Positions 9,001 through 32,420 of a DNA stretch of 64,000 bases are shown here, piece by piece (the first letter of the stretch is position 1; the number at the start of each line of letters is the position of its first letter). Source of the stretch: Bursaphelenchus xylophilus (taxonomy: Eukaryota; Nematoda; Chromadorea; Rhabditida; Aphelenchoididae); the NCBI GenBank assembly GCA_904066235.2, contig CAJFCV020000006.1, forward strand, positions 1 through 64,000, in the 5' to 3' direction. The position numbers were made by a program, and so were the translations under genes. The notes beneath the pieces were generated by a model, which worked only from the letters and a program-made list of their open reading frames with translations, did not search any database and had not been told where the DNA came from.

Positions 9001-12000
9001 AAAACTAAAATCGTCGTAAGAATTTACAGTACGCTTATATTCACTGAATTCTTTTTGTAGTATGTTTCTAATGTAGTGTTATCCAATTTCCTACCCACTG
9101 TTTTTTAATTTCCAAGCTCGGTCTGGCGATTTCGGTCTTTACCGGCAGATAGGCGCCGGACAGGCGAAAAAAAAACTAAAATCATCGTAAGAATTTACAG
9201 TACGCTTATATTCACTGAATTCTTTTTGTAGTATGTTTCTAATGTCGTGTTATCCAATTTCCTACCCACTGTTTTTTAATTTCCAAGCTCGCTCTGGCGA
9301 TTTCGGTCTTTACCGGCAGATAGGTGCCGGACAGGCGAAAAAAAACTAAAATCGTCGTAAGAATTTACAGTACGCTTATATTCACTGAATTCTTTTTGTA
9401 GTATGTTTCTAATGTAGTGTTATCCAATTTCCTACCCACTGTTTTTTAATTTCCAAGCTCGGTCTGGCGATTTCGGTCTTTACCGGCAGATAGGCGCCGG
9501 ACAGGCGAAAAAAAACTAAAATCGTCGTAAGAATTTACAGTACGCTTATATTCACTGAATTCTTTTTTGTAGTATGTTTCTAATGTCGTGTTATCCAATT
9601 TCCTACCCACTGTTTTTTAATTTCCAAGCTCGCTCTGGCGATTTCGGTCTTTACCGGCAGATAGGCGCCGGACAGGCGAAAAAAACTAAAATCGTCGTAA
9701 GAATTTACAGTACGCTTATATTCACTGAATTCTTTTTGTAGTATGTTTCTAATGTCGTGTTATCCAATTTCCTACCCACTGTTTTTTAATTTCCAAGCTC
9801 GGTCTGGCGATTTCGGTCTTTACCGGCAGATAGGCGCCGGACAGGCGAAAAAAAACTAAAATCGTCGTAAGAATTTACAGTACGCTTATATTCACTGAAT
9901 TCTTTTTGTAGTATGTTTCTAATGTCGTGTTATCCAATTTCCTACCCACTGTTTTTTAATTTCCAAGCTCGCTCTGGCGATTTCGGTCTTTACCGGCAGA
10001 TAGGCGCCGGACAGGCGAAAAAAAACTAAAATCATCGTAAGAATTTACAGTACGCTTATATTCACTGAATTCTTTTTGTAGTATGTTTCTAATGTCGTGT
10101 TATCCAATTTCCTACCCACTGTTTTTTAATTTCCAAGCTCGCTCTGGCGATTTCGGTCTTTACCGGCAGATAGGTGCCGGACAGGCGAAAAAAACTAAAA
10201 TCGTCGTAAGAATTTACAGTACGCTTATATTCACTGAATTCTTTTTGTAGTATGTTTCTAATGTAGTGTTATCCAATTTCCTACCCACTGTTTTTTAATT
10301 TCCAAGCTCGGTCTGGCGATTTCGGTCTTTACCGGCAGATAGGCGCCGGACAGGCGAAAAAAACTAAAATCGTCGTAAGAATTTACAGTACGCTTATATT
10401 CACTGAATTCTTTTTGTAGTATGTTTCTAATGTAGTGTTATCCAATTTCCTACCCACTGTTTTTTAATTTCCAAGCTCGGTCTGGCGATTTCGGTCTTTA
10501 CCGGCAGATAGGCGCCGGACAGGCGAAAAAAAAACTAAAATCGTCGTAAGAATTTACAGTACGCTTATATTCACTGAATTCTTTTTGTAGTATGTTTCTA
10601 ATGTCGTGTTATCCAATTTCCTACCCACTGTTTTTTAATTTCCAAGCTCGCTCTGGCGATTTCGGTCTTTACCGGCAGATAGGCGCCGGACAGGCGAAAA
10701 AAAACTAAAATCGTCGTAAGAATTTACAGTACGCTTATATTCACTGAATTCTTTTTGTAGTATGTTTCTAATGTCGTGTTATCCAATTTCCTACCCACTG
10801 TTTTTTAATTTCCAAGCTCGCTCTGGCGATTTCGGTCTTTACCGGCAGATAGGCGCCGGACAGGCGAAAAAAAACTAAAATCGTCGTAAGAATTTACAGT
10901 ACGCTTATATTCACTGAATTCTTTTTGTAGTATGTTTCTAATGTAGTGTTATCCAATTTCCTACCCACTGTTTTTTAATTTCCAAGCTCGGTCTGGCGAT
11001 TTCGGTCTTTACCGGCAGATAGGCGCCGGACAGGCGAAAAAAAACTAAAATCGTCGTAAGAATTTACAGTACGCTTATATTCACTGAATTCTTTTTTTAT
11101 TATGTTTCTAATGTAGTGTTATCCAATTTCCTACCCACCGTTTTTTAATTTCCAAGCTCGGTCTGGTGATTTCGGCCTTTACCGGCAGATAGGCGCCGGA
11201 CAGGCGAAAAAAAACTAAAATCGTCGTAAGAATTTACAGTACGCTTATATTCACTGAATTCTTTTTGTAGTATGTTTCTAATGTCGTGTTATCCAATTTC
11301 CTACCCACTGTTTTTTAATTTCCAAGCTCGCTCTGGCGATTTCGGTCTTTACCGGCAGATAGGCGCCGGACAGGCGAAAAAAACTAAAATCGTCGTAAGA
11401 ATTTACAGTACGCTTATATTCACTGAATTCTTTTTGTAGTATGTTTCTAATGTAGTGTTATCCAATTTCCTACCCACTGTTTTTTAATTTCCAAGCTCGG
11501 TCTGGCGATTTCGGTCTTTACCGGCAGATAGGCGCCGGACAGGCGAAAAAAAACTAAAATCATCGTAAGAATTTACAGTACGCTTATATTCACTGAATTC
11601 TTTTTGTAGTATGTTTCTAATGTCGTGTTATCCAATTTCCTACCCACTGTTTTTTAATTTCCAAGCTCGCTCTGGCGATTTCGGTCTTTACCGGCAGATA
11701 GGTGCCGGACAGGCGAAAAAAAACTAAAATCGTCGTAAGAATTTACAGTACGCTTATATTCACTGAATTCTTTTTGTAGTATGTTTCTAATGTAGTGTTA
11801 TCCAATTTCCTACCCACTGTTTTTTAATTTCCAAGCTCGGTCTGGCGATTTCGGTCTTTACCGGCAGATAGGCGCCGGACAGGCGAAAAAAAAAACTAAA
11901 ATCATCGTAAGAATTTACAGTACGCTTATATTCACTGAATTCTTTTTGTAGTATGTTTCTAATGTCGTGTTATCCAATTTCCTACCCACTGTTTTTTAAT

Positions 12001-15000
12001 TTCCAAGCTCGCTCTGGCGATTTCGGTCTTTACCGGCAGATAGGTGCCGGACAGGCGAAAAAAAACTAAAATCGTCGTAAGAATTTACAGTACGCTTATA
12101 TTCACTGAATTCTTTTTGTAGTATGTTTCTAATGTAGTGTTATCCAATTTCCTACCCACTGTTTTTTAATTTCCAAGCTCGGTCTGGCGATTTCGGTCTT
12201 TACCGGCAGATAGGCGCCGGACAGGCGAAAAAAAAACTAAAATCGTCGTAAGAATTTACAGTACGCTTATATTCACTGAATTCTTTTTGTAGTATGTTTC
12301 TAATGTCGTGTTATCCAATTTCCTACCCACTGTTTTTTAATTTCCAAGCTCGCTCTGGCGATTTCGGTCTTTACCGGCAGATAGGCGCCGGACAGGCGAA
12401 AAAAAACTAAAATCGTCGTAAGAATTTACAGTACGCTTATATTCACTGAATTCTTTTTGTAGTATGTTTCTAATGTCGTGTTATCCAATTTCCTACCCAC
12501 TGTTTTTTAATTTCCAAGCTCGCTCTGGCGATTTCGGTCTTTACCGGCAGATAGGCGCCGGACAGGCGAAAAAAACTAAAATCGTCGTAAGAATTTACAG
12601 TACGCTTATATTCACTGAATTCTTTTTTGTAGTATGTTTCTAATGTAGTGTTATCCAATTTCCTACCCACTGTTTTTTAATTTCCAAGCTCGGTCTGGCG
12701 ATTTCGGTCTTTACCGGCAGATAGGTGCCGGACAGGCGAAAAAAAACTAAAATCGTCGTAAGAATTTACAGTACGCTTATATTCACTGAATTCTTTTTGT
12801 AGTATGTTTCTAATGTAGTGTTATCCAATTTCCTACCCACTGTTTTTTAATTTCCAAGCTCGGTCTGGCGATTTCGGTCTTTACCGGCAGATAGGCGCCG
12901 GACAGGCGAAAAAAAACTAAAATCGTCGTAAGAATTTACAGTACGCTTATATTCACTGAATTCTTTTTGTAGTATGTTTCTAATGTCGTGTTATCCAATT
13001 TCCTACCCACTGTTTTTTAATTTCCAAGCTCGGTCTGGCGATTTCGGTCTTTACCGGCAGATAGGCGCCGGACAGGCGAAAAAAAACTAAAATCGTCGTA
13101 AGAATTTACAGTACGCTTATATTCACTGAATTCTTTTTGTAGTATGTTTCTAATGTCGTGTTATCCAATTTCCTACCCACTGTTTTTTAATTTCCAAGCT
13201 CGCTCTGGCGATTTCGGTCTTTACCGGCAGATAGGTGCCGGACAGGCGAAAAAAAACTAAAATCGTCGTAAGAATTTACAGTACGCTTATATTCACTGAA
13301 TTCTTTTTGTAGTATGTTTCTAATGTAGTGTTATCCAATTTCCTACCCACTGTTTTTTAATTTCCAAGCTCGGTCTGGCGATTTCGGTCTTTACCGGCAG
13401 ATAGGCGCCGGACAGGCGAAAAAAAAACTAAAATCGTCGTAAGAATTTACAGTACGCTTATATTCACTGAATTCTTTTTTTATTATGTTTCTAATGTAGT
13501 GTTATCCAATTTCCTACCCACCGTTTTTTAATTTCCAAGCTCGGTCTGGTGATTTCGGCCTTTACCGGCAGATAGGCGCCGGACAGGCGAAAAAAAACTA
13601 AAATCGTCGTAAGAATTTACAGTACGCTTATATTCACTGAATTCTTTTTGTAGTATGTTTCTAATGTCGTGTTATCCAATTTCCTACCCACTGTTTTTTA
13701 ATTTCCAAGCTCGGTCTGGCGATTTCGGTCTTTACCGGCAGATAGGCGCCGGACAGGCGAAAAAAAACTAAAATCGTCGTAAGAATTTACAGTACGCTTA
13801 TATTCACTGAATTCTTTTTGTAGTATGTTTCTAATGTCGTGTTATCCAATTTCCTACCCACTGTTTTTTAATTTCCAAGCTCGCTCTGGCGATTTCGGTC
13901 TTTACCGGCAGATAGGTGCCGGACAGGCGAAAAAAAACTAAAATCGTCGTAAGAATTTACAGTACGCTTATATTCACTGAATTCTTTTTGTAGTATGTTT
14001 CTAATGTAGTGTTATCCAATTTCCTACCCACTGTTTTTTAATTTCCAAGCTCGGTCTGGCGATTTCGGTCTTTACCGGCAGATAGGCGCCGGACAGGCGA
14101 AAAAAACTAAAATCGTCGTAAGAATTTACAGTACGCTTATATTCACTGAATTCTTTTTGTAGTATGTTTCTAATGTCGTGTTATCCAATTTCCTACCCAC
14201 TGTTTTTTAATTTCCAAGCTCGCTCTGGCGATTTCGGTCTTTACCGGCAGATAGGCGCCGGACAGGCGAAAAAAAACTAAAATCGTCGTAAGAATTTACA
14301 GTACGCTTATATTCACTGAATTCTTTTTGTAGTATGTTTCTAATGTAGTGTTATCCAATTTCCTACCCACTGTTTTTTAATTTCCAAGCTCGGTCTGGCG
14401 ATTTCGGTCTTTACCGGCAGATAGGCGCCGGACAGGCGAAAAAAAACTAAAATCGTCGTAAGAATTTACAGTACGCTTATATTCACTGAATTCTTTTTGT
14501 AGTATGTTTCTAATGTCGTGTTATCCAATTTCCTACCCACTGTTTTTTAATTTCCAAGCTCGGTCTGGCGATTTCGGTCTTTACCGGCAGATAGGCGCCG
14601 GACAGGCGAAAAAAAACTAAAATCGTCGTAAGAATTTACAGTACGCTTATATTCACTGAATTCTTTTTGTAGTATGTTTCTAATGTCGTGTTATCCAATT
14701 TCCTACCCACTGTTTTTTAATTTCCAAGCTCGCTCTGGCGATTTCGGTCTTTACCGGCAGATAGGCGCCGGACAGGCGAAAAAAACTAAAATCGTCGTAA
14801 GAATTTACAGTACGCTTATATTCACTGAATTCTTTTTGTAGTATGTTTCTAATGTCGTGTTATCCAATTTCCTACCCACTGTTTTTTAATTTCCAAGCTC
14901 GGTCTGGCGATTTCGGTCTTTACCGGCAGATAGGCGCCGGACAGGCGAAAAAAAACTAAAATCGTCGTAAGAATTTACAGTACGCTTATATTCACTGAAT

Positions 15001-18000
15001 TCTTTTTGTAGTATGTTTCTAATGTCGTGTTATCCAATTTCCTACCCACTGTTTTTTAATTTCCAAGCTCGCTCTGGCGATTTCGGTCTTTACCGGCAGA
15101 TAGGTGCCGGACAGGCGAAAAAAAACTAAAATCGTCGTAAGAATTTACAGTACGCTTATATTCACTGAATTCTTTTTGTAGTATGTTTCTAATGTAGTGT
15201 TATCCAATTTCCTACCCACTGTTTTTTAATTTCCAAGCTCGGTCTGGCGATTTCGGTCTTTACCGGCAGATAGGCGCCGGACAGGCGAAAAAAAACTAAA
15301 ATCGTCGTAAGAATTTACAGTACGCTTATATTCACTGAATTCTTTTTTTATTATGTTTCTAATGTAGTGTTATCCAATTTCCTACCCACCGTTTTTTAAT
15401 TTCCAAGCTCGGTCTGGTGATTTCGGCCTTTACCGGCAGATAGGCGCCGGACAGGCGAAAAAAACTAAAATCGTCGTAAGAATTTACAGTACGCTTATAT
15501 TCACTGAATTCTTTTTGTAGTATGTTTCTAATGTCGTGTTATCCAATTTCCTACCCACTGTTTTTTAATTTCCAAGCTCGGTCTGGCGATTTCGGTCTTT
15601 ACCGGCAGATAGGCGCCGGACAGGCGAAAAAAAACTAAAATCGTCGTAAGAATTTACAGTACGCTTATATTCACTGAATTCTTTTTGTAGTATGTTTCTA
15701 ATGTCGTGTTATCCAATTTCCTACCCACTGTTTTTTAATTTCCAAGCTCGCTCTGGCGATTTCGGTCTTTACCGGCAGATAGGTGCCGGACAGGCGAAAA
15801 AAAACTAAAATCGTCGTAAGAATTTACAGTACGCTTATATTCACTGAATTCTTTTTGTAGTATGTTTCTAATGTAGTGTTATCCAATTTCCTACCCACTG
15901 TTTTTTAATTTCCAAGCTCGGTCTGGCGATTTCGGTCTTTACCGGCAGATAGGCGCCGGACAGGCGAAAAAAAAACTAAAATCGTCGTAAGAATTTACAG
16001 TACGCTTATATTCACTGAATTCTTTTTGTAGTATGTTTCTAATGTCGTGTTATCCAATTTCCTACCCACTGTTTTTTAATTTCCAAGCTCGCTCTGGCGA
16101 TTTCGGTCTTTACCGGCAGATAGGCGCCGGACAGGCGAAAAAAAACTAAAATCGTCGTAAGAATTTACAGTACGCTTATATTCACTGAATTCTTTTTGTA
16201 GTATGTTTCTAATGTAGTGTTATCCAATTTCCTACCCACTGTTTTTTAATTTCCAAGCTCGGTCTGGCGATTTCGGTCTTTACCGGCAGATAGGCGCCGG
16301 ACAGGCGAAAAAAAACTAAAATCGTCGTAAGAATTTACAGTACGCTTATATTCACTGAATTCTTTTTGTAGTATGTTTCTAATGTCGTGTTATCCAATTT
16401 CCTACCCACTGTTTTTTAATTTCCAAGCTCGCTCTGGCGATTTCGGTCTTTACCGGCAGATAGGTGCCGGACAGGCGAAAAAAAACTAAAATCGTCGTAA
16501 GAATTTACAGTACGCTTATATTCACTGAATTCTTTTTGTAGTATGTTTCTAATGTAGTGTTATCCAATTTCCTACCCACTGTTTTTTAATTTCCAAGCTC
16601 GGTCTGGCGATTTCGGTCTTTACCGGCAGATAGGCGCCGGACAGGCGAAAAAAACTAAAATCGTCGTAAGAATTTACAGTACGCTTATATTCACTGAATT
16701 CTTTTTGTAGTATGTTTCTAATGTCGTGTTATCCAATTTCCTACCCACTGTTTTTTAATTTCCAAGCTCGCTCTGGCGATTTCGGTCTTTACCGGCAGAT
16801 AGGCGCCGGACAGGCGAAAAAAAACTAAAATCGTCGTAAGAATTTACAGTACGCTTATATTCACTGAATTCTTTTTTGTAGTATGTTTCTAATGTAGTGT
16901 TATCCAATTTCCTACCCACTGTTTTTTAATTTCCAAGCTCGGTCTGGCGATTTCGGTCTTTACCGGCAGATAGGCGCCGGACAGGCGAAAAAAAACTAAA
17001 ATCGTCGTAAGAATTTACAGTACGCTTATATTCACTGAATTCTTTTTGTAGTATGTTTCTAATGTCGTGTTATCCAATTTCCTACCCACTGTTTTTTAAT
17101 TTCCAAGCTCGGTCTGGCGATTTCGGTCTTTACCGGCAGATAGGCGCCGGACAGGCGAAAAAAAACTAAAATCGTCGTAAGAATTTACAGTACGCTTATA
17201 TTCACTGAATTCTTTTTGTAGTATGTTTCTAATGTCGTGTTATCCAATTTCCTACCCACTGTTTTTTAATTTCCAAGCTCGCTCTGGCGATTTCGGTCTT
17301 TACCGGCAGATAGGTGCCGGACAGGCGAAAAAAAACTAAAATCGTCGTAAGAATTTACAGTACGCTTATATTCACTGAATTCTTTTTGTAGTATGTTTCT
17401 AATGTAGTGTTATCCAATTTCCTACCCACTGTTTTTTAATTTCCAAGCTCGGTCTGGCGATTTCGGTCTTTACCGGCAGATAGGCGCCGGACAGGCGAAA
17501 AAAAACTAAAATCGTCGTAGAATTTACAGTACGCTTATATTCACTGAATTCTTTTTGTAGTATGTTTCTAATGTCGTGTTATCCAATTTCCTACCCACTG
17601 TTTTTAATTTCCAAGCTCGGTCTGGCGATTTCGGTCTTTACCGGCAGATAGGCGCCGGACAGGCGAAAAAAAACTAAAATCGTCGTAAGAATTTACAGTA
17701 CGCTTATATTCACTGAATTCTTTTTGTAGTATGTTTCTAATGTCGTGTTATCCAATTTCCTACCCACTGTTTTTTAATTTCCAAGCTCGCTCTGGCGATT
17801 TCGGTCTTTACCGGCAGATAGGCGCCGGACAGGCGAAAAAAACTAAAATCGTCGTAAGAATTTACAGTACGCTTATATTCACTGAATTCTTTTTTTATTA
17901 TGTTTCTAATGTAGTGTTATCCAATTTCCTACCCACCGTTTTTTAATTTCCAAGCTCGGTCTGGTGATTTCGGCCTTTACCGGCAGATAGGCGCCGGACA

Positions 18001-18345
18001 GGCGAAAAAAAACTAAAATCGTCGTAAGAATTTACAGTACGCTTATATTCACTGAATTCTTTTTGTAGTATGTTTCTAATGTCGTGTTATCCAATTTCCT
18101 ACCCACTGTTTTTTAATTTCCAAGCTCGGTCTGGCGATTTCGGTCTTTACCGGCAGATAGGCGCCGGACAGGCGAAAAAAAACTAAAATCGTCGTAAGAA
18201 TTTACAGTACGCTTATATTCACTGAATTCTTTTTGTAGTATGTTTCTAATGTCGTGTTATCCAATTTCCTACCCACTGTTTTTTAATTTCCAAGCTCGCT
18301 CTGGCGATTTCGGTCTTTACCGGCAGATAGGCGCCGGACAGGCGA
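1..18345 (+). repeat. ~170-bp satellite array, left block (about 107 monomers, + orientation)
   Basis: This block is an uninterrupted head-to-tail array with a period of 170-173 bp; most of the length change comes from an A-run of about 6-9 bases. Each monomer reads: A-run, CTAAAATCGTCGTAAG, a segment with an EcoRI site (GAATTC), a T-run, a CCAATTTCCTACCCA block, and a GC-richer end with CCGGC...GCCGG and usually the palindrome GGCGCC. Variants recur at fixed places: TAATGTAG or TAATGTCG, CTCGGTC or CTCGCTC, GGCGCC or GGTGCC, ATCGTCG or ATCATCG, and a distinctive type with TTTTTTTATTATG, CCCACCG and TCTGGTGATTTCGGCC. Short open frames in the array are chance products of the monomer. I see no gene. 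It runs into the scaffold gap on the right. It is the same family as 38137-64000, in the opposite orientation to most of that block. Confidence 0.98.
5270..6632 (+). repeat. Two consecutive copies of a 4-monomer higher-order repeat in the left satellite
   Basis: Four monomer types follow in a fixed order: (A) TAATGTAG with CTCGGTC; (C) TTATTATG with CCCACCG and GGTGATTTCGGCC; (D) TAATGTCG with CTCGGTC; (B') TAATGTCG with CTCGCTC and GGTGCC. The order A-C-D-B' runs twice in succession here with a period of about 680 bp. It recurs near 13250-13930 and 15120-15790, with B-C-D-B' near 6800-7470. This is local higher-order structure, probably made by unequal exchange. Confidence 0.75.
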
Positions 18346-18815
18346 NNNNNNNNNNNNNNNNNNNNNNNNNNNNNNNNNNNNNNNNNNNNNNNNNNNNNNN
18401 NNNNNNNNNNNNNNNNNNNNNNNNNNNNNNNNNNNNNNNNNNNNNNNNNNNNNNNNNNNNNNNNNNNNNNNNNNNNNNNNNNNNNNNNNNNNNNNNNNNN
18501 NNNNNNNNNNNNNNNNNNNNNNNNNNNNNNNNNNNNNNNNNNNNNNNNNNNNNNNNNNNNNNNNNNNNNNNNNNNNNNNNNNNNNNNNNNNNNNNNNNNN
18601 NNNNNNNNNNNNNNNNNNNNNNNNNNNNNNNNNNNNNNNNNNNNNNNNNNNNNNNNNNNNNNNNNNNNNNNNNNNNNNNNNNNNNNNNNNNNNNNNNNNN
18701 NNNNNNNNNNNNNNNNNNNNNNNNNNNNNNNNNNNNNNNNNNNNNNNNNNNNNNNNNNNNNNNNNNNNNNNNNNNNNNNNNNNNNNNNNNNNNNNNNNNN
18801 NNNNNNNNNNNNNNN
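18346..18815. other. Assembly gap (470 N)
   Basis: All bases are N. The gap lies between the left satellite, cut within a monomer just after GGACAGGCGA, and base 23 of the first element copy. The true 5' junction of the element array is therefore not visible. The distance, and even the adjacency, of the two sides rests on scaffolding. Confidence 1.
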
Positions 18816-18931
18816 AAGGGACTCAAGTTACACGTCGACAGCGAACCAATACACAGATCGTAATTCGCGGCAATAAGAACCCCTTCGACGACGACTACAA
18901 TACAAACAATCCGTTTTCCCCTTACTACAAC

Positions 18932-18936
18932 TTCAG
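18932..18936 (+). promoter_or_regulatory. Possible spliced-leader acceptor TTCAG, copy 1
   Basis: TTCAG/G lies 10 nt upstream of the chosen ATG, after a moderately pyrimidine-rich stretch. In nematodes many mRNAs receive a trans-spliced leader at such a site close to the start codon. This would explain why translation starts at this ATG although the frame is open further upstream. No transcript evidence is available, and a cis acceptor for an unseen 5' exon is equally possible. Confidence 0.35.
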
Positions 18937-18946
18937 GCGCGAAAGA

Positions 18947-21900
18947 ATGAACCATCGTGTAATGTTGTCTCCCGACCAGTCAATGGGGTTCAAGTTTAAA
19001 ACAAAGCCCATTGTGCCATTCACGTGGATACCGACACCGAACAGCGCAGACCCCACCGCACAGGAGGACTACTTTCGCCGCCTTCTTATCCTATTCGGCC
19101 CTCCATGGCGAAACGAGGAGACATTGGCCTTCACCACGAACAATTACAAGGCGACGTGGAACCATTTTGCTGATCAGGAGAGTACCTCATCGGATGAAAA
19201 CAGGCGGAACGGAATAGCCGACGTAAAGCGATTACTGGGACAATACTACCGCGTTTACAAGTCACGAGATCCACTGTCAGAGAAGGAGATTTGCTTAGCG
19301 AATCAGGACAGCAGCTTACTCACGAGAACTACCCAACAAGCCGGAGGAACAATCATGTCAACAATGAAATCGACACCGGAAAGAGAGGTAGCACAGAAAC
19401 TGAGCACATTAAACGCGGCTCAGAGTGAGGTATTTCACATGGTAAGGCTGACACAATTCCAGAACCTACGCATGTTTAAAGGGGTTATAAATATAGTCAC
19501 TATTTTTAGATGCGGCACAAATATTTAAATCCCGCAACCGAACCGCCCATCTACGTTTGTGTAACTGGAGAACCAGGCGTTGGGAAGACTTTCTTGATTC
19601 GACGCATCCTTGAGTTCTTCAACAACAGCATCCCCGAATACGATTCAACGGGATTGCCCGTTGTCTTGGCGTTGTCGTTCACCGCGCAAGGCGCCAAAGA
19701 GATGGGAGGGGTTACAATCAACAGCGCCCTCAATTTGCAATTTGACTACGGAACAAAAGTGGCAGAGTATAACCCACTTCAAGCGGTTGTTCAATGCCGT
19801 TTAAAAAACGTGTTTGAGAAATTGCAGTTCGTGCTGATAGATGAAATAAGCGTGGTGAACGCGGAGTTGCTAATGGCGATCAATCTGAGGCTTATTGAAA
19901 TCACCGGAAACTCCGATCCGTTTGGGGGAATGAACATTGTCGCATTTGGCGACTTTTGCCAGAATCCTATCTTCGCAGGAACGCCCGTTTATAAAACAAT
20001 TCCTCCGAATGAGCAACGCAGAATCTTCAAAAATGTGGTCGAACTTCCTGCGCTGTGGTAAGGCAGAATTAAATATTTTCATATTTTTAGTTGCTACTAA
20101 GCGAGTTACTATAAAAACTTGGTTTCAGGGATTTATTCACCTTTTATCCACTCACAATCAATGTCCGCCAGTCAGAGGACAAAGTTTTTGCCAATTTACT
20201 TCATATTCTCAGAACGAGCGGGACAATCCCCGTTGGCGAACTGGCCATCTTGAAAAAAAGGGTAATCCCGTCAAACGTGGGGCTAACACGAGACTTTGCT
20301 GAGCGGTGGAATCCATACGACCACTGCCGCAACGGGGTACTGGTGGCTCAATCCAACGACACAGTACGACGACATAACGCAGAAATCCTCAACAGAGTCT
20401 ATGCGCTGTCTTTGAAAGGAAAATTTGGATCCGTCCACACAACAACAAAGACATTTGCGCCGATCACGATAAAGGCAATAACCTACAACAGCGACGGGGA
20501 GTTGGAAACACGAATCACAGCCGTGGACGACAAGTACTTTCCACCGTGTGCACCGTTCAACTTGAAAATGGCAATAAACGCTCGGGTTGCAATGACCGTA
20601 AACATGGCCCCATTATGTAACTCGCAGCTTGGACGAATAACCAAATTTTTCCACAACAAGACAACATGTGAGGTTGACGGCATTGAAGTTATGTTCGAGG
20701 AGATGGAGGCACCGATTGTTGTACCACGATATACTACGATAGGGTTTGGATGGTGCTCTAATTACATTCGAGAACAATTTCCGCTCACTCTAGCATTTTG
20801 CTCTACTTCGTACAAAGTACAAGGAACTACACAAGCGTCGGTGCATGTGGACGTCAACGATCTTATCAAACATCCTGCCGCGTTATATGTCGCCTTAAGC
20901 CGCGTGAAGAAGGTTGAACAAGTTTTCCTGTCCAACATGTTTCGCACATTGGATCCATTACCAGACGCTTATTTGGTGGCCCATCAAATCGCCTCTCGTC
21001 CAGCCTGTTACAAAAGTGGAACAATATGGGATAAAAAACAGCTGGAACAGGGAATTCCTCGGATTCTGTCCAACGCATTATCTGGGTCGCCAGCACACGT
21101 ACACGACGACGGCCCTGCTGCTTCAAAACCGAACGACGCACAAACAGTGAAAGAGCGAAAGAAACGACACTCGGATCTAGTTGATATACCATTTACCGAA
21201 TCCGGGAAAAAGCAAAGACTAACACCTCAGAGGAGCGAAGCGCGAGGCACAAGTGATGTGATAGGTAAGAGGAAAAAAAAACCTTATACCTTATTTTTAG
21301 GACAAGGATTCTCACTGTCCAATACCTCGGGGACCATATGCTGGCTTAACGCCAGCATTAATTTGCTATACCAACTACCAGCATTTGTTCACATGCTCGA
21401 AATGGAACAGCTAACTCCCGAATTCACAATTCTGCGCGACTCCCTGCTCGAAGAAAATCTGACAGCTTTCCGAGAACATGAAGCAATAGTGGAGGGGTTC
21501 GACGACGATTTGCATAGCCAGATTGATGCAGTTGACTATCTTACCCATTTTCTTCAACGTCATCGTGATATACAGTCAACAGTCAGCTGGAATTACGAAA
21601 TAACCCCACACGCTGGGTGCAGGACCTGTGGCACATCTCAAATGAGAGGATTCCGTCAAAACGTCGATTTAATACGAACTATTCCACGGCCTACAGAACG
21701 GGCAGTCCAAGCCGCCGTACTTGAATCCATGCTTTTGTCTTGTGGAAGGTGTGGCCGAAAATATTCACAAACCATAAATGTGACGTAAGTTCTCCGCATT
21801 ACATTAACAACGAATATTCGGCTTTTAGAATTCCTCCCTCCTTACGACATTTGTTTGTCGTCATAAACAGCCCGAATGTTGACGGAGGGAATCTAGAATT

Positions 21901-23151
21901 TTTGCATGAGTTGGACGATGACAGCATACACATATTTGGGGTTCCGTTTGAATTATGCGCCATTATGAGTCGCATTGGAGAATCCGGAGAGTTTGGACAT
22001 TTTTTCACACGAGTCAAAAATCGCGGAGCAACTTTTGTTGAATTCAACGATTCATCGATCAATTATGCGGTTCCATCAGCTACTGCCGTCGAGAATGCGT
22101 ATGTGGCATTGTTCAGACGGTTGGACGCAGACCCCAATCCCATTGAATGGAGAGAAAGCCGTGTACAAGCCAATCGGGCTGATCCCATCAACAAGCCGCA
22201 ACCTGCATCATCACGCGCATTGCAGGGCGAAAACATCGACATCAATCCGAATGAAATATTACCTTTTTCCAACCCCAACAACTCTTACTGTTGGCTGAAT
22301 GCCGATATGAACGCGATGTGGCAGATGAGAGAGGTTAGAGAATTCATCTTAAACGAGCAGATGGTCTACAACGGGTTGCCAACGTTGAGGAGGGCCATAA
22401 AAGCACAAGATTTGACGGAGTATCGAAAAGCACACCGCGAATTACGCAACCCCAGTAACGGCAATGCAATGTTAAGCACTCCACAATGGGACCCGGTGGA
22501 TGATCAAAGAGACTGCTTGGATTATATATGGGACTTTATATCACTCTTCCCCGCGCTGATGATTCCATTGATTCAGTTTGAAGTCCATGCGACGATCGAG
22601 CCCTGTATCCAACATCCGCAATCAGGCCGAGCTACAATGCAGCAGAAATACGAAGTCTTTTCGGCCGGGAATGTCCCAAAAACCGCTGCATGTCTGTCTG
22701 CTGAAAATGGCAAAATTAACATGTTGGCGCTGCTTACAATGTACACGTATAAGACATGTTCCAAATGTCGTAATGTGAGGCCCGCCGTTAGGAAAGTTAT
22801 GTAAGTTTGAAAAACGAAAATCTCTAAATTGTTTAATTTACGATAGCAAAAGTAATATCGGGGGTTTTCAGGTTCCCAACAACTATGCGGTACCTGTTCG
22901 TAGACATAGAATCAAGTCAAACTCTGTCGCTTCTGGAGGAGGCCGATTATTGGAACATACATATCGAAGGAGAATCATTTGAAATTTGTTGTGTTTTGGT
23001 ACGCATCGAATGTGCCGGAGGGCATCATTATTTTGCACGCGTCTTCGTAAATGGCAGAATTTATGAAGTGGATACGCTAACGGTCAGAAGAATCGAAGGA
23101 GAAAATCCCTTGAAAAACGCAAGATTTTTTATTTTGAGACGTCGTTTATAA
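18947..23151 (+). CDS. Pif1-family helicase fused to two USP-like (C19) domains, copy 1
   Basis: Inferred exons are 18947-19441, 19510-20057, 20129-21264, 21301-21784, 21829-22800 and 22872-23151. Introns are 68, 71, 36, 44 and 71 nt, all GT-AG, and every junction stays in frame (1304 aa). Residues 42-58 carry a Helitron-helicase-like linker (YFRRLL, PPWRNEE). Pif1 motifs follow: LNAAQ (155-159), Walker A GEPGVGKT (185-192), DEIS (276-279), GDFCQNP (312-318), INVRQSED after exon 3 begins, SYKVQGTT (575-582) and VALSRV (602-607). A basic, NLS-like stretch lies near 689-695. USP module 1 has Cys740 in TICWLNA, zinc pairs C833/C836 and C874/C877, His945 in GHFF and Asp962. USP module 2 has Cys1042 in SYCWLNA and a weaker His box near 1263. 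The likely role is ATP-driven DNA unwinding plus deubiquitination in the nucleus, inferred from the domains. The 36-nt third intron has no stop and could be retained (1316 aa). The start is the only ATG after the upstream stop. Confidence 0.82.
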
Positions 23152-23198
23152 ATTCATTGTTTGATTTTGTCGTGCGTCTAAATGTGCATATAAGAGGA

Positions 23199-23204
23199 AA
23201 TAAA
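23199..23204 (+). terminator. Polyadenylation signal AATAAA, copy 1
   Basis: A canonical AATAAA lies 48 nt after the stop codon of the helicase-USP gene, in AT-rich sequence and before the minisatellites. It occurs at the same place in all three copies and probably ends the mRNA upstream of the repeats. Confidence 0.6.
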
Positions 23205-23243
23205 AAATTATTTGGAACCTGCGTATTTGAAATTCCTCTATGT

Positions 23244-23979
23244 AAATTTCTGTAATATGCGTCTATGTAAGAAATGTTTCATTAGGATTTAATTCGAATG
23301 GTCTGGAAAACGCTTACCTGCTTTAGCTCGGCCCTAACTTCTCGCCGGCCTTCGGCCGCCGTCGCACGGCCCTCGCCGTCGCCCTCCGGGCGACCCCCCC
23401 CTCCCACATCCCTCACCTTCTGCGCATAAAAAAATTTCTGTAATATGCGTCTATGTAAGAAATGTTCAGTAGGATTTAATTCGAGTCGTCTGGAAAACGC
23501 TTACCTGCTTTAGCTCGGCCCTAACTTCTCGCCGGCCGCCGTCGCACGGCCCTCGCCGTCGCCCTCCGGGCGACCCCCCCCTCCCACATCCCTCACCTTC
23601 TGCGCATAAAAAAATTTCTGTAATATGCGTCTATGTAAGAAATGTTCAGTAGGATTTAATTCGAGTCGTCTGGAAAAACCTTACCTGCTTGAGCTCGGCC
23701 CTAACTTCTCGCCGGCCGCCGTCGCACGGCCTCGCCGTCGCCCTCCGGGCGACCCCCCCCCCTCCCACATCCCTCACCTTCTGCGCATAAAAAAATTTCT
23801 GTAATATGCGTCTATGTAAGAAATGTTCAGTAGGATTTAATTCGAATCGTCTGGAAAAACCTTACCTGCTTGAGCTCGGCCCTAACTTCTCGCCGGCCTT
23901 CGGCCGCCGTCGCACGGCCCTCGCCGTCGCCCTCCGGGCGACCCCCCCCTCCCTCATCCCTCACCTTCTGCGCATAAAA
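23244..23979 (+). repeat. GC-rich ~180-bp minisatellite, 4 units, copy 1
   Basis: Units start at 23244, 23432, 23612 and 23793 (188, 180, 181 and 187 bp); a short fifth fragment leads into the next repeat. Each begins AAATTTCTGTAATATGCGTC and continues through an AT-rich half to a strongly C/G-rich half. The GC half has a perfect hairpin GTCGCCC-TCC-GGGCGAC and, in units 1 and 4, CGGCC-TTC-GGCCG, then a C-run of about 7-9 and CACCTTCTGCGCAT. The minus strand of every unit carries CAGGTAAG, a perfect 5' splice-site match. No supported gene. Confidence 0.9.
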
Positions 23980-24008
23980 AAATTTCTGTAATGTGCGTCT
24001 AAATAGAC

Positions 24009-25366
24009 AGCCGCAAAAAAATGCAAATTTTGCCTGATTTGCATAAAAGACAAGGGGGTAAAAATTTTTTCTATTTTTCCCATCATGGCGGCACCGAACG
24101 CTTTCGAATGAGCCCACTCACAAGCTTAACGGAGCGAAAATAGAAAGCCGCAAAAAATGCAAATTTTGCCTAATTTGCATAAAAGGCAAGGGGGTAAAAA
24201 TTTTTTCTATGTTTCCCATCATCGCGGCACCGAACGCTTTCGAATGAGCCCACTCACAAGCTTAACGGAGCGAAAATAGAAAGCCGCAAAAAAATGCAAA
24301 TTTTGCCTAATTTGCATAAAAATGAAGGGTGTAAAAATTTTTTTCTATTTTTCCCATCATCGCGGCACCGAACGCTTTCGAATGAGCCCACTCACAAGCT
24401 TAACGGAGCGAAAATAGAAAGCCGCAAAAATGCAAATTTTGCCTAATTTGCATAAAAGACAAGGGTGTAAAAATTTTTTTCTATTTTTTCCCATCATCGC
24501 GGCACCGAACGCTTTCGAATGAGCCCACTCACAAGCTTAACGGAGCGAAAATAGAAAGCCGCAAAAAATGCAAATTTTGCCTAATTTGCATAAAAATGAA
24601 GGGTGTAAAAATTTTTTTCTACTTTTCCCATCATCGCGGCACCGAACGCTTTCGAATGAGCCCACTCACAAGCTTAACGGACCGAAAATAGAAAGCCGCA
24701 AAAAATGCAAATTTGGCCTAATTTGCATAAAAGACAAGGGTGTAAAAATTTTTTTCTATTTTTTCCCATCATCGCGGCACCGAACGCTTTCGAATGAGCC
24801 CACTCACAAGCTTAACGGAGCGAAAATAGAAAGCCGCAAAAATGCAAATTTTGCCTAATTTGCATAAAAGACAAGGGTGTAAAAATTTTTTTCTATTTTT
24901 TCCCATCATCGCGGCACCGAGCGCTTTCGAATGAGCCCACTCACAAGCTTAACGGAGCGAAAGTAGAAAGCCGCAAAAATGCAAATTTTGCCTAATTTGC
25001 ATAAAAGACGAGGGGGTAAAAAATTTTTTCTATTTTTCCCATCATCGCGGCACCGAACGCTTTCGAATGAGCCCACTCACAAGCTTAACGGAGCGAAAAT
25101 AGAAAGCCGCAAAAATGCAAATTTTGCCTAATTTGCATAAAAGACAAGGGTGTAAAATTTTTTTCTATTTTTCCCATCATCGCGGCACCGAACGCTTTCG
25201 AATGAGCCCACTCACAAGCTTAACGGACCGAAAATAGAAAGCCGCAAAAAATGCAAATTTGGCCTAATTTGCATAAAAGACAAGGGTGTAAAAATTTTTT
25301 TCTATTTTTCCCATCATCGCGGCACCGAGCGCTTTCGAATGAGCCCACTCACAAGCTTAACGGAGC
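24009..25366 (+). repeat. AT-rich ~136-bp minisatellite, 10 units, copy 1
   Basis: Ten units (1358 bp in total) each contain AGCCGCAAAAA, the inverted repeat ATGCAAAT-N8-ATTTGCAT, a variable AAGGG(G/T)GTAAAAATTTTT segment, CCCATCATCGCGGCACCGA, CGCTTTCGAATGAGCCC and CAAGCTTAACGGAG. In nearly all units the spacer of the inverted repeat plus its next base contains GCCTAA, the telomeric hexamer. Open frames through the array are products of the repeat. Confidence 0.92.
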
Positions 25367-25530
25367 AAAAAAATGTTTAATCTTAAGAAATCTAAAAAAA
25401 AAATTTTAAACACCAAAAACACATACTTCCCGGAGGGCTAGAGCGAAAATTCAAAAAGATCCGTGAAATTCAGCCGACTGGCTACCCGGACCGGGAAAAT
25501 CTCAGATTTGTCCTCAATCTAAGTATATAA
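25367..25530 (+). other. 3' terminal region of copy 1 with three small hairpins
   Basis: This is single-copy sequence after the minisatellite and before the next element. It has an A-run, then three short inverted repeats: AGCC-gact-GGCT (25472-25483), CCCGG-a-CCGGG (25485-25495) and AGATT-N7-AATCT (25504-25520). It ends CTAAGTATATAA. Hairpins close to a 3' end, followed by a CTRR-like CTAA, recall Helitron termini, but the distance to the copy boundary does not fit the usual pattern well. Confidence 0.55.
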
Positions 25531-25531
25531 A
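25524..25531 (+). promoter_or_regulatory. TATA-like box TATATAAA spanning the copy 1/copy 2 junction
   Basis: TATATAA is the last heptamer of copy 1 and the next A is the first base of copy 2. Transcription about 30 bp downstream would start near 25554 in the leader of copy 2, 130 bp before its ATG. So the 3' end of one element appears to provide the core promoter for the next, as is known for the telomeric retrotransposon HeT-A. Inferred from sequence only. Confidence 0.45.
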
Positions 25532-25668
25532 ACAACGGCACCAGTGCGGCAAAAGGGACTCAAGTTACACGTCGACAGCGAACCAATACACAGATCGTAA
25601 TTCGCGGCAATAAGAACCCCTTCGACGACGACTACAATACAAACAATCCGTTTTCCCCTTACTACAAC

Positions 25669-25673
25669 TTCAG
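25669..25673 (+). promoter_or_regulatory. Possible spliced-leader acceptor TTCAG, copy 2
   Basis: Same site as in copy 1, 10 nt before the ATG at 25684. Confidence 0.35.
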
Positions 25674-25683
25674 GCGCGAAAGA

Positions 25684-28600
25684 ATGAACCATCGTGTAAT
25701 GTTGTCTCCCGACCAGTCAATGGGGTTCAAGTTTAAAACAAAGCCCATTGTGCCATTCACGTGGATACCGACACCGAACAGCGCAGACCCCACCGCACAG
25801 GAGGACTACTTTCGCCGCCTTCTTATCCTATTCGGCCCTCCATGGCGAAACGAGGAGACATTGGCCTTCACCACGAACAATTACAAGGCGACGTGGAACC
25901 ATTTTGCTGATCAGGAGAGTACCTCATCGGATGAAAACAGGCGGAACGGAATAGCCGACGTAAAGCGATTACTGGGACAATACTACCGCGTTTACAAGTC
26001 ACGAGATCCACTGTCAGAGAAGGAGATTTGCTTAGCGAATCAGGACAGCAGCTTACTCACGAGAACTACCCAACAAGCCGGAGGAACAATCATGTCAACA
26101 ATGAAATCGACACCGGAAAGAGAGGTAGCACAGAAACTGAGCACATTAAACGCGGCTCAGAGTGAGGTATTTCACATGGTAAGGCTGACACAATTCCAGA
26201 ACCTACGCATGTTTAAAGGGGTTATAAATATAGTCACTATTTTTAGATGCGGCACAAATATTTAAATCCCGCAACCGAACCGCCCATCTACGTTTGTGTA
26301 ACTGGAGAACCAGGCGTTGGGAAGACTTTCTTGATTCGACGCATCCTTGAGTTCTTCAACAACAGCATCCCCGAATACGATTCAACGGGATTGCCCGTTG
26401 TCTTGGCGTTGTCGTTCACCGCGCAAGGCGCCAAAGAGATGGGAGGGGTTACAATCAACAGCGCCCTCAATTTGCAATTTGACTACGGAACAAAAGTGGC
26501 AGAGTATAACCCACTTCAAGCGGTTGTTCAATGCCGTTTAAAAAACGTGTTTGAGAAATTGCAGTTCGTGCTGATAGATGAAATAAGCGTGGTGAACGCG
26601 GAGTTGCTAATGGCGATCAATCTGAGGCTTATTGAAATCACCGGAAACTCCGATCCGTTTGGGGGAATGAACATTGTCGCATTTGGCGACTTTTGCCAGA
26701 ATCCTATCTTCGCAGGAACGCCCGTTTATAAAACAATTCCTCCGAATGAGCAACGCAGAATCTTCAAAAATGTGGTCGAACTTCCTGCGCTGTGGTAAGG
26801 CAGAATTAAATATTTTCATATTTTTAGTTGCTACTAAGCGAGTTACTATAAAAACTTGGTTTCAGGGATTTATTCACCTTTTATCCACTCACAATCAATG
26901 TCCGCCAGTCAGAGGACAAAGTTTTTGCCAATTTACTTCATATTCTCAGAACGAGCGGGACAATCCCCGTTGGCGAACTGGCCATCTTGAAAAAAAGGGT
27001 AATCCCGTCAAACGTGGGGCTAACACGAGACTTTGCTGAGCGGTGGAATCCATACGACCACTGCCGCAACGGGGTACTGGTGGCTCAATCCAACGACACA
27101 GTACGACGACATAACGCAGAAATCCTCAACAGAGTCTATGCGCTGTCTTTGAAAGGAAAATTTGGATCCGTCCACACAACAACAAAGACATTTGCGCCGA
27201 TCACGATAAAGGCAATAACCTACAACAGCGACGGGGAGTTGGAAACACGAATCACAGCCGTGGACGACAAGTACTTTCCACCGTGTGCACCGTTCAACTT
27301 GAAAATGGCAATAAACGCTCGGGTTGCAATGACCGTAAACATGGCCCCATTATGTAACTCGCAGCTTGGACGAATAACCAAATTTTTCCACAACAAGACA
27401 ACATGTGAGGTTGACGGCATTGAAGTTATGTTCGAGGAGATGGAGGCACCGATTGTTGTACCACGATATACTACGATAGGGTTTGGATGGTGCTCTAATT
27501 ACATTCGAGAACAATTTCCGCTCACTCTAGCATTTTGCTCTACTTCGTACAAAGTACAAGGAACTACACAAGCGTCGGTGCATGTGGACGTCAACGATCT
27601 TATCAAACATCCTGCCGCGTTATATGTCGCCTTAAGCCGCGTGAAGAAGGTTGAACAAGTTTTCCTGTCCAACATGTTTCGCACATTGGATCCATTACCA
27701 GACGCTTATTTGGTGGCCCATCAAATCGCCTCTCGTCCAGCCTGTTACAAAAGTGGAACAATATGGGATAAAAAACAGCTGGAACAGGGAATTCCTCGGA
27801 TTCTGTCCAACGCATTATCTGGGTCGCCAGCACACGTACACGACGACGGCCCTGCTGCTTCAAAACCGAACGACGCACAAACAGTGAAAGAGCGAAAGAA
27901 ACGACACTCGGATCTAGTTGATATACCATTTACCGAATCCGGGAAAAAGCAAAGACTAACACCTCAGAGGAGCGAAGCGCGAGGCACAAGTGATGTGATA
28001 GGTAAGAGGAAAAAAAAACCTTATACCTTATTTTTAGGACAAGGATTCTCACTGTCCAATACCTCGGGGACCATATGCTGGCTTAACGCCAGCATTAATT
28101 TGCTATACCAACTACCAGCATTTGTTCACATGCTCGAAATGGAACAGCTAACTCCCGAATTCACAATTCTGCGCGACTCCCTGCTCGAAGAAAATCTGAC
28201 AGCTTTCCGAGAACATGAAGCAATAGTGGAGGGGTTCGACGACGATTTGCATAGCCAGATTGATGCAGTTGACTATCTTACCCATTTTCTTCAACGTCAT
28301 CGTGATATACAGTCAACAGTCAGCTGGAATTACGAAATAACCCCACACGCTGGGTGCAGGACCTGTGGCACATCTCAAATGAGAGGATTCCGTCAAAACG
28401 TCGATTTAATACGAACTATTCCACGGCCTACAGAACGGGCAGTCCAAGCCGCCGTACTTGAATCCATGCTTTTGTCTTGTGGAAGGTGTGGCCGAAAATA
28501 TTCACAAACCATAAATGTGACGTAAGTTCTCCGCATTACATTAACAACGAATATTCGGCTTTTAGAATTCCTCCCTCCTTACGACATTTGTTTGTCGTCA

Positions 28601-29888
28601 TAAACAGCCCGAATGTTGACGGAGGGAATCTAGAATTTTTGCATGAGTTGGACGATGACAGCATGCACATATTTGGGGTTCCGTTTGAATTATGCGCCAT
28701 TATGAGTCGCATTGGAGAATCCGGAGAGTTTGGACATTTTTTCACACGAGTCAAAAATCGCGGAGCAACTTTTGTTGAATTCAACGATTCATCGATCAAT
28801 TATGCGGTTCCATCAGCTACTGCCGTCGAGAATGCGTATGTGGCATTGTTCAGACGGTTGGACGCAGACCCCAATCCCATTGAATGGAGAGAAAGCCGTG
28901 TACAAGCCAATCGGGCTGATCCCATCAACAAGCCGCAACCTGCATCATCACGCGCATTGCAGGGCGAAAACATCGACATCAATCCGAATGAAATATTACC
29001 TTTTTCCAACCCCAACAACTCTTACTGTTGGCTGAATGCCGATATGAACGCGATGTGGCAGATGAGAGAGGTTAGAGAATTCATCTTAAACGAGCAGATG
29101 GTCTACAACGGGTTGCCAACGTTGAGGAGGGCCATAAAAGCACAAGATTTGACGGAGTATCGAAAAGCACACCGCGAATTACGCAACCCCAGTAACGGCA
29201 ATGCAATGTTAAGCACTCCACAATGGGACCCGGTGGATGATCAAAGAGACTGCTTGGATTATATATGGGACTTTATATCACTCTTCCCCGCGCTGATGAT
29301 TCCATTGATTCAGTTTGAAGTCCATGCGACGATCGAGCCCTGTATCCAACATCCGCAATCAGGCCGAGCTACAATGCAGCAGAAATACGAAGTCTTTTCG
29401 GCCGGGAATGTCCCAAAAACCGCTGCATGTCTGTCTGCTGAAAATGGCAAAATTAACATGTTGGCGCTGCTTACAATGTACACGTATAAGACATGTTCCA
29501 AATGTCGTAATGTGAGGCCCGCCGTTAGGAAAGTTATGTAAGTTTGAAAAACGAAAATCTCTAAATTGTTTAATTTACGATAGCAAAAGTAATATCGGGG
29601 GTTTTCAGGTTCCCAACAACTATGCGGTACCTGTTCGTAGACATAGAATCAAGTCAAACTCTGTCGCTTCTGGAGGAGGCCGATTATTGGAACATACATA
29701 TCGAAGGAGAATCATTTGAAATTTGTTGTGTTTTGGTACGCATCGAATGTGCCGGAGGGCATCATTATTTTGCACGCGTCTTCGTAAATGGCAGAATTTA
29801 TGAAGTGGATACGCTAACGGTCAGAAGAATCGAAGGAGAAAATCCCTTGAAAAACGCAAGATTTTTTATTTTGAGACGTCGTTTATAA
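25684..29888 (+). CDS. Pif1-family helicase fused to two USP-like domains, copy 2
   Basis: Inferred exons are 25684-26178, 26247-26794, 26866-28001, 28038-28521, 28566-29537 and 29609-29888, giving 1304 aa with the same motif set as copy 1. The only protein change I found is residue 921, Met here against Ile in copies 1 and 3 (G at 28665). It lies in USP module 1, 24 residues before the catalytic-type His945. Third intron 36 nt. This is the copy with a fully visible upstream region: a TATA-like box at the copy 1/copy 2 junction, a ~130-bp leader and the possible trans-splice acceptor. All helicase motifs, Cys740, His945 and Asp962 are intact, so it could encode active protein. Splice sites are predicted by eye and unconfirmed by RNA. 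Confidence 0.82.
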
Positions 29889-29935
29889 ATTCATTGTTTG
29901 ATTTTGTCGTGCGTCTAAATGTGCATATAAGAGGA

Positions 29936-29941
29936 AATAAA
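29936..29941 (+). terminator. Polyadenylation signal AATAAA, copy 2
   Basis: AATAAA lies 48 nt after the stop of the copy 2 gene, as in copy 1. Confidence 0.6.
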
Positions 29942-29980
29942 AAATTATTTGGAACCTGCGTATTTGAAATTCCTCTATGT

Positions 29981-30716
29981 AAATTTCTGTAATATGCGTC
30001 TATGTAAGAAATGTTTCATTAGGATTTAATTCGAATGGTCTGGAAAACGCTTACCTGCTTTAGCTCGGCCCTAACTTCTCGCCGGCCTTCGGCCGCCGTC
30101 GCACGGCCCTCGCCGTCGCCCTCCGGGCGACCCCCCCTCCCACATCCCTCACCTTCTGCGCATAAAAAAATTTCTGTAATATGCGTCTATGTAAGAAATG
30201 TTCAGTAGGATTTAATTCGAGTCGTCTGGAAAACGCTTACCTGCTTTAGCTCGGCCCTAACTTCTCGCCGGCCGCCGTCGCACGGCCCTCGCCGTCGCCC
30301 TCCGGGCGACCCCCCCCTCCCACATCCCTCACCTTCTGCGCATAAAAAAATTTCTGTAATATGCGTCTATGTAAGAAATGTTCAGTAGGATTTAATTCGA
30401 GTCGTCTGGAAAAACCTTACCTGCTTGAGCTCGGCCCTAACTTCTCGCCGGCCGCCGTCGCACGGCCCTCGCCGTCGCCCTCCGGGCGACCCCCCCCCTC
30501 CCACATCCCTCACCTTCTGCGCATAAAAAAATTTCTGTAATATGCGTCTATGTAAGAAATGTTCAGTAGGATTTAATTCGAATCGTCTGGAAAAACCTTA
30601 CCTGCTTGAGCTCGGCCCTAACTTCTCGCCGGCCTTCGGCCGCCGTCGCACGGCCCTCGCCGTCGCCCTCCGGGCGACCCCCCCCCCCCCTCATCCCTCA
30701 CCTTCTGCGCATAAAA
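29981..30716 (+). repeat. GC-rich ~180-bp minisatellite, 4 units, copy 2
   Basis: Units start at 29981, 30168, 30348 and 30529. Unit-specific differences match copy 1 unit by unit: unit 1 has TTTCATTAGG and AATGGTC, units 1 and 4 have the extra CTTCGGC, and units 3 and 4 have GCTTGAGCTC. The whole element was therefore copied as a block. C-runs differ slightly in length from copy 1. Confidence 0.9.
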
Positions 30717-30745
30717 AAATTTCTGTAATGTGCGTCTAAATAGAC

Positions 30746-32103: not shown

Positions 32104-32267
32104 AAAAAAATGTTTAATCTTAAGAAATCTAAAAAAAAAATTTTAAACACCAAAAACACATACTTCCCGGAGGGCTAGAGCGAAAATTCAAAAAGATCCG
32201 TGAAATTCAGCCGACTGGCTACCCGGACCGGGAAAATCTCAGATTTGTCCTCAATCTAAGTATATAA
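32104..32267 (+). other. 3' terminal hairpin region of copy 2
   Basis: Same 164-bp tail as copy 1, with the three small inverted repeats and final TATATAA. It runs directly into AACAACGG of copy 3. Confidence 0.55.
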
Positions 32268-32410: not shown

Positions 32411-32420
32411 GCGCGAAAGA

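Follow-up and report, generated by a model that had tools for sequence, protein, structure and literature searches.

A putative telomere-dwelling, Helitron-derived element with a predicted helicase and ubiquitin-protease fusion gene at a contig end of Bursaphelenchus xylophilus

Introduction

The telomeric retrotransposons HeT-A and TART of Drosophila and SART and TRAS of the silkworm form head-to-tail arrays in which the 3′ ends point toward the chromosome body. The Y′ elements of yeast are repeated units adjoining telomeres, which carry helicase genes and internal telomere tracts and occur in tandem copies. The same traits are found in the fungal telomere-linked helicase genes (TLH), according to the sections of the report that deal with them (PMC8381367). 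Here we describe a 64,000-nucleotide stretch of the nematode Bursaphelenchus xylophilus (GenBank assembly GCA_904066235.2, contig CAJFCV020000006.1, positions 1 to 64,000; hereafter the window), in which a gene predicted to encode a Pif1-type helicase fused to two modules resembling ubiquitin-specific proteases (USPs, class C19) lies within tandem units that abut telomere repeats.

Helitron-like Pif1 genes were reported on 11 of the 12 telomeric extensions of O. tipulae; these helitrons contain nuclease and helicase domains, and the main text gives their longest gene a length of 3895 or 3985 amino acids (PMC8022731). In the portions of a second report that concern helitrons, two Caenorhabditis species have them enriched in eliminated DNA, mostly at chromosome ends, and of 26 non-eliminating Caenorhabditis species 5 show such enrichment at chromosome ends (PMC13370393). 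Helitrons and Helentrons bearing deubiquitinases of the OTU or VTD class are also described, with VTD activity shown and with one zebrafish element carrying two VTD domains, in the relevant parts of two further reports (PMC9741609, PMC4067079).

The window unit resembles the O. tipulae elements in its place at a nematode chromosome end, its Pif1-type helicase, the TTAGGC telomeres and a Helitron-like character that nevertheless scores poorly in helitron searches, as the main text of that report also has it (PMC8022731); it differs in lacking a recognisable Rep and in carrying two USP-like modules. The words "ubiquitin" and "protease" do not occur in the main text of PMC8022731. With the OTU and VTD Helitrons it shares a Helitron-class element bearing a ubiquitin-cleaving protease (here predicted), and it differs from them in the USP class of that protease, its place after the helicase, the absence of a visible Rep or endonuclease and the location at telomeres. 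Compared with Y′ and TLH, it has a Pif1/Helitron-type helicase with USP-like modules and a shared 3′ terminus on the telomere hexamer. It is like HeT-A/TART and SART/TRAS in its inward 3′ ends and head-to-tail array, and unlike them it has a DNA helicase in place of a reverse transcriptase, for which the window protein has no Pfam match. The reading toward which we lean is that of a telomere-dwelling, Helitron-derived element that is likely copied onto telomeres, with a helicase-USP protein that likely unwinds DNA and would remove ubiquitin; we infer both the copying route and the enzyme activities.

Results

Head-to-tail units, the last joined to the telomere repeat at its 3′ end

A whole-genome search places the window at positions 1-64000 of a 12.82-Mb contig (C6), of which it is the first 64 kb; the assembly holds 78.25 Mb in eight contigs (numbered here with the prefix C), six of them longer than 12 Mb and the other two near 15 kb. 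This contig layout, the telomere repeat and the short introns fit a nematode. The window contains three head-to-tail units on the plus strand, where all window features below also lie unless stated otherwise: unit 1 (18816..25530), the 5′ end of which is lost in a gap, unit 2 (25531..32267), which at 6737 bp is 99.88% identical to unit 1, and unit 3 (32268..38100), which has fewer minisatellite copies and terminates in TATATAA. In unit 1 the gene is followed by a GC-rich minisatellite with 4.1 copies of 180 bp (23244..24001), a second minisatellite with 10 copies of 137 bp (24001..25371) and a 159-bp 3′ tail (25372..25530), whose terminal letters are CTAAGTATATAA. The last letters of unit 3, ..CTCAATCTAAGTATATAA at 38100, are followed immediately by (GCCTAA)6 (38101..38136), the TTAGGC telomere repeat, with its G strand running leftwards, in the direction of the contig end, which is the orientation of a left chromosome end. 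In such exact joints the element end and the hexamer have the letters TAA in common (TATATAA and GCCTAA).

We searched the whole genome, including the right ends of C1-C5, with the tail and the sequence that follows it (25372-25683) as the query, and the resulting counts are lower bounds. At least 19 matches were found, comprising 18 tails and one leader, and the tails (at least 18) belong to four contig ends, with 12 on C1, two on C4, three at the left end of C6 and one at its right end. Every match lies no more than 38.1 kb from a contig end, the 3′ end of the tail faces inward in 18/18, and 17 of the 18 tails extend to query position 157, the limit of the shared tail, or past it. Three places, C6 left, C6 right and C4:28538, have the identical joint CTCAATCTAAGTATATAA|GCCTAA, and a candidate fourth, ..TATATATTAA|GCCTAA before the proximal tract at C4:33853, resembles it. 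The tails found are confined to contig ends in a fixed orientation; small internal fragments of the bodies exist, namely a 147-bp piece of exon 5 (93%) at C2:10.55 Mb and pieces of a 2.25-kb unit at C1:11.41 and 13.57 Mb. At the left ends of C1 and C4, elements lie between a distal telomere tract (6-1663 and 16-1311, respectively, with interruptions) and a proximal one (29348-29567 and 33854-33955). The C1 units are mostly about 2250 bp long and 99.9% identical to one another, and the one examined has no frame longer than 138 amino acids.

The main rival to a copying mechanism would be recombination between ends, as in yeast Y′: the units would be a passive subtelomeric amplicon that spreads by exchange and does not transpose, with the gene a passenger or an aid to recombination. 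Its likeness to Y′ in size, helicase content, minisatellites, tandem copies and internal telomere tract speaks for this, and the near-identical units on C1 (99.9%) and in the window fit recent amplification by exchange. However, the same 3′-terminal base meets GCCTAA at three places, two of which have tails diverging by 7-12% from that of the window, and a common end is found on tails whose bodies differ; this resembles a defined element terminus more than the outcome of homology-driven exchange. We consider the amplicon unlikely. A profile search for Telomerase_RBD gave no match anywhere, its controls included, and is uninformative.

The extreme 3′ terminus of the element, TATATAA (25524-25530, 32261-32267), is a TATA-like box, and from its position each unit could promote the following one. 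In HeT-A, each element is reported to promote the next one.

A six-exon gene in three open copies

The gene at 18947..23151 is predicted to be spliced from six exons (18947-19441, 19510-20057, 20129-21264, 21301-21784, 21829-22800 and 22872-23151) into a frame of 1304 codons, encoding 1304 amino acids, with GT..AG borders in all five introns (68, 71, 36, 44 and 71 nt). Since four of the five introns shift the frame, splicing is needed; the exception, intron 3 (36 nt), is in frame and is open in copies 1 and 2. GC makes up 49% of third codon positions, 45% of first and second positions and 31% of the introns. An AATAAA hexamer resembling a poly(A) signal lies 3′ of the stop codon (23199..23204). 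Copy 2 (25684..29888) differs from copy 1 by one amino-acid change (I921M), and copy 3 (32421..36626) encodes the same protein as copy 1, its intron 3 being longer by a 1-nt insertion. The 139 bases examined upstream of the start codon of copy 2 contain no ATG, and by motif reading TATATAA lies about 150 bp upstream of it. All three copies have open frames, and because the three proteins vary at one residue, tests of selection within the window would be pointless.

A preliminary description, made from the letters alone, had named a single in-frame six-exon gene at 18947..23151, and this is borne out: the predicted exons join into one frame, and every motif listed there is present. The helicase motifs GEPGVGKT, DEIS, GDFCQNP, SYKVQGTT and VALSRV begin at residues 185, 276, 312, 575 and 602 of the 1304-residue frame, followed by TICWLNA (738), CRTC (833), CGRC (874), GHFF (944), FND (960) and SYCWLNA (1040). 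Those coordinates cover just one of three copies, and the description overlooked the tandem copies, the telomere junction, the common 3′ tail and the wider family.

The fusion could be an artefact of the gene model, with helicase and USP being separate genes or decayed pieces, given that the splicing is predicted only and that intron 3, which immediately precedes the USP part, is short and in frame. Against this, exons 3 and 4 form a single open frame in copies 1 and 2 even if intron 3 is retained, and a diverged helicase-then-USP order recurs on C4 (see below); we hold an artefact to be very improbable. A different proposal is that the host has domesticated a Helitron-derived helicase-deubiquitinase for the management of telomeres or for programmed elimination of chromosome ends. 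The open frames in 3/3 copies agree with it, and the telomeric extensions of O. tipulae hold helitrons for which co-option is raised by the authors in the main text (PMC8022731). The multicopy tandem placement beside satellite and telomere DNA, the derivative units at other ends (including the C1 unit without a frame longer than 138 amino acids) and the failure of whole-genome searches to find another close full-length copy of the gene speak against domestication, which we hold to be improbable. Searches of viral contigs returned 12 and 2 pattern matches, no relative among them.

The helicase belongs with Helitrons by similarity

Pfam identifies PIF1 in the window protein (E 1.8e-14). A database search with the whole protein, in which the best 7993 candidates by shared words were scored, gave six matches and no close relative; four of them carry Helitron_like_N (PF14214), one (P0001, a Holothuria protein) has PIF1 and an endonuclease-type domain, and one (P0006) is Pif1-like and has no Helitron domains. 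The pair alignment with P0001 (E 3e-34) spans a common PWRNE linker before the helicase; it begins at residue 185 of P0001, upstream of the helicase and, in our reading, downstream of its Rep part. Pif1-type helicases make up most of the 19 PDB matches at E ≤ 0.01, and the lowest-ranking match is the Helitron transposase Helraiser (7lcc, E 2.7e-7). In PHROGs the helicase exon matches a Dda-like helicase (E 5.4e-15), and three exon pieces run against NCBIfam gave one weak match (E 0.11). Because of the protein matches, the alignment over the PWRNE linker and the PDB matches including Helraiser, the window helicase is assigned by similarity to the Helitron class of SF1B (Pif1-like) helicases.

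The other marks of a Helitron were sought in the window unit. Its 5′ frame has no Pfam match, and no recognisable Rep (the HUH nuclease) is fused before the helicase as in Helitrons and Helentrons; PF14214 matches 17 places in the genome and none in the window. The canonical Helitron ends (5′ TC and 3′ CTRR with a hairpin) were not found either, as the 3′ end is TATATAA; a CTAA starts 12 bp before it. Helitrons insert into AT or T-rich DNA without duplicating the target; here the element adjoins GCCTAA on its 3′ side, and its 5′ side falls in the gap. Judged on Rep and on canonical ends, formal membership of the window unit among Helitrons fails, though its helicase appears to be of Helitron class.

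Several Helitron_like_N matches lie elsewhere in the genome. Eight internal loci with unbroken frames, seven of them of 2282-2836 residues, are found at C1:3.18-4.92 Mb and C5:10.84-12.29 Mb, and close to the left end of C2 there is a fragment interrupted by a stop codon (6732-6887, minus strand; 49.7 bits). The 15-kb unplaced contig C7, perhaps another chromosome end, has a telomere tract at its start (6-89) and a Helitron_like_N match at 13754-14068.

Two modules with the layout of ubiquitin-specific proteases

The two modules are homologous to each other (BLASTP E 1e-13, 22% identity), and the invariant columns of their alignment include C740, H945 and D962 in module 1 and C1042, H1264 and D1279 in module 2. 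Each thus has a Cys box followed by a His box and a Cys/His/Asp triad, the latter assigned in module 2 through homology to module 1, and the spacing of 17 residues described for the first module stands (His945-Asp962). With module 1 as the query, 17 PDB matches were obtained at E ≤ 1, of which 15 are USPs (best USP E 0.076); the top-ranking match (E 0.056) is an unrelated protein. A two-row profile built from the pair of modules gave 24 PDB matches at E ≤ 10, namely 22 USPs and two SLX4 (best E 0.0027), and the three alignments displayed match the Cys-box and then the His-box parts, in order. The UCH profile (PF00443), with a cut-off of 23.9 bits, scores 25.9 bits on excised module 1 and 23.7, just below the cut-off, on the full protein.

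The preliminary description had proposed Pfam searches, among other checks: PIF1 was recovered, PF00443 passed its cut-off on module 1 when excised, fell just short on the full protein and had no match in module 2, and PF14214 was absent from the window. The USP catalytic layout is supported in both modules, and so is the fusion of a helicase to two USP-like modules, as judged from sequence and from the homology between the modules. The double module (589 amino acids) had no relatives in a protein database at E ≤ 0.1, and residues 757-1304, a query that lacks the first Cys box, had none at E ≤ 10. The USP exons had weak matches only in PHROGs (E 0.1 and above). An AlphaFold model of exon 5 alone had a mean pLDDT of 32 and was unusable.

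A diverged Rep-helicase-USP set at another contig end

On the minus strand of C4, from about 8.2 to 1.8 kb and beside the distal telomere, there is a diverged set of separate open reading frame (ORF) pieces with the order Rep, helicase, USP. The pieces match, in order, DUF6570 (21.6 bits, below the cut-off), Helitron_like_N (cut-off 28.9 bits; two pieces with 24.1 and 28.8, rising to 49.6 with neighbours in frame), UvrD_C_2 (20.9, below the cut-off) and UCH, the last with 24.0 bits for a Cys-box piece (above the cut-off) and 22.5 for a His-box piece (below it). They contain AEPGCGKT, noticed by eye, and CGALHVHILLW, which we take to be of the HUH type. Against the PDB at E ≤ 0.1 the USP pieces match USPs only, 14/14 (best E 0.029) and 7/7 (best E 0.0045).

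With exon 2 as the query, C4 is the closest match to the window helicase in the rest of the genome (E 3.7e-13, 32%); with exon 3, C4 and an internal Helitron score about equally (3.4e-5 and 3.9e-5). The C4 set appears to be a Rep-bearing relative, known as separate ORF pieces, and a second helicase-then-USP order exists in diverged form, so that helicase and USP occur together at two contig ends of one genome (C6 left and C4 left). The internal frame with Rep and helicase at C6:11.90 Mb continues for no more than about 35 residues past its last helicase motif and has no USP.

Minisatellites, satellites and the gap

The ten G-quadruplex-type motifs of the window all lie in the 180-bp minisatellite (23244-24001, 29981-30738 and 36719-37117), on the minus strand, which here is also that of the telomeric G strand. 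Pif1 helicases unwind structures of the G-quadruplex type. A hexamer scan of the 137-bp minisatellite, which covered unit 2 (30738-32108), found nine GCCTAA, all oriented like the telomere tract; the same strand has no TTAGGC there.

The units are flanked by satellite DNA. About 108 copies of a 170-bp satellite (1..18345) lie distal to a 470-bp N gap (18346..18815), which conceals the 5′ end of unit 1 together with its satellite junction. Proximal to the telomere tract there is about one satellite copy in plus orientation (38137..38311), after which the orientation switches and about 152 copies in minus orientation (38310..64000, minus strand) extend beyond the window; the arrays flanking the units, plus to the left of the gap and minus on the right, are thus mutually inverted. 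The gap may be a wrong scaffold join. The satellite pattern had no matches in the viral and genome contigs searched. Searches of the window for tRNAs and Rfam families found none, and neither did a scan for bacterial promoters and terminators, which is ill-suited to this genome.

Discussion

The confinement of the tails to contig ends, their fixed orientation and the three identical joints with the telomere hexamer, together with a Helitron-class helicase, are the grounds on which we favour a telomere-dwelling, Helitron-derived element. A number of findings weigh against this interpretation. The exact joint is present in just 3 of 18 tails. The six C1 tails printed (of 12) and C4:24668 carry the variant end ..ATATATTGAAAGCCTGAGCC, which, read as ..CTCGATCTAAATATATTGAAAGCCTGAGCC, continues into degenerate telomere-like repeats; the tail lying furthest inward on C1 is cut short at 29322, two window tails continue into the following unit, and at C4:28538 just GCCTAAGCC precedes the degenerate repeats that open the next unit. 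The tails could also have spread by exchange between ends and not by separate insertions. The 470-bp gap conceals the element's 5′ end, and a terminal telomere tract was not found on C6 in the stretches read. With regard to Helitron ancestry, inverted repeats of the Helentron type are not above chance (the longest, 8 bp, was equalled or exceeded in 87 of 200 shuffles), and a search for a strong 3′ hairpin found none, the one present being weak (z -0.89). With regard to the protease, module 2 has no Pfam UCH match of its own, and its three weak PDB matches at E ≤ 10 are of thioredoxin type, none being a USP. The kinship with C4 is likewise loose: in tblastn the best single stretch for the whole helicase is the internal Helitron at C6:11.90 Mb (75 bits), with 65, 47 and 40 bits for C4; the C4 pieces have no 159-bp tail and lie in the opposite orientation; their USP pieces are unmatched by the window USP modules in tblastn, for which the module-1 query lacked the first Cys box; and hhalign relates the two USPs weakly (probability 26%, E 7e-4).

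We propose that the 3′ end of the telomeric G strand (..GGCTTA) would pair with the terminal TAA of the element and then be extended along it. A circular template would give head-to-tail arrays of near-identical units, as at C1 and in the window. The helicase would open the duplex, while the USP modules might shield the helicase or its partners from being removed through ubiquitin, a model akin to the protection proposed for VTD Helitrons in the part of that report devoted to it (PMC9741609). A nuclease, if needed, could be supplied in trans by Rep-bearing relatives such as the C4 set. The preliminary description had guessed at a role in removing ubiquitin from telomere proteins, among other targets, and the telomere part of the guess gains support from the position of the gene, as telomere hexamers adjoin the last unit.

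A bolder form of this proposal seems to us doubtful. It holds that the units represent a nuclease-less Helitron lineage, in which the telomeric 3′ overhang would prime on a circular element at its terminal TAA and the helicase-deubiquitinase would drive rolling-circle copying, giving a HeT-A-like extension of telomeres that dispenses with reverse transcriptase. Such a lineage would have discarded its own nuclease because telomeres already supply a free 3′ end.

Telomeric helitrons are already known from O. tipulae, as are helitron deubiquitinases of the OTU and VTD classes. In the literature searched, at the level of titles and abstracts, we found no USP-bearing Helitron, and no published case of the USP duplication or of a Rep-less unit was found.

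Helitrons at nematode chromosome ends have previously had no settled reason for being there. The common 3′ terminus, abutting the telomere hexamer, offers a concrete and testable route by which a DNA element could live on telomeres and perhaps lengthen them. The helicase-USP order, which two contig ends of one genome show in very different forms, would add USP to OTU and VTD among the ubiquitin proteases of Helitrons, and its recurrence would suggest that escape from ubiquitin-driven removal is a repeated need of Helitrons.

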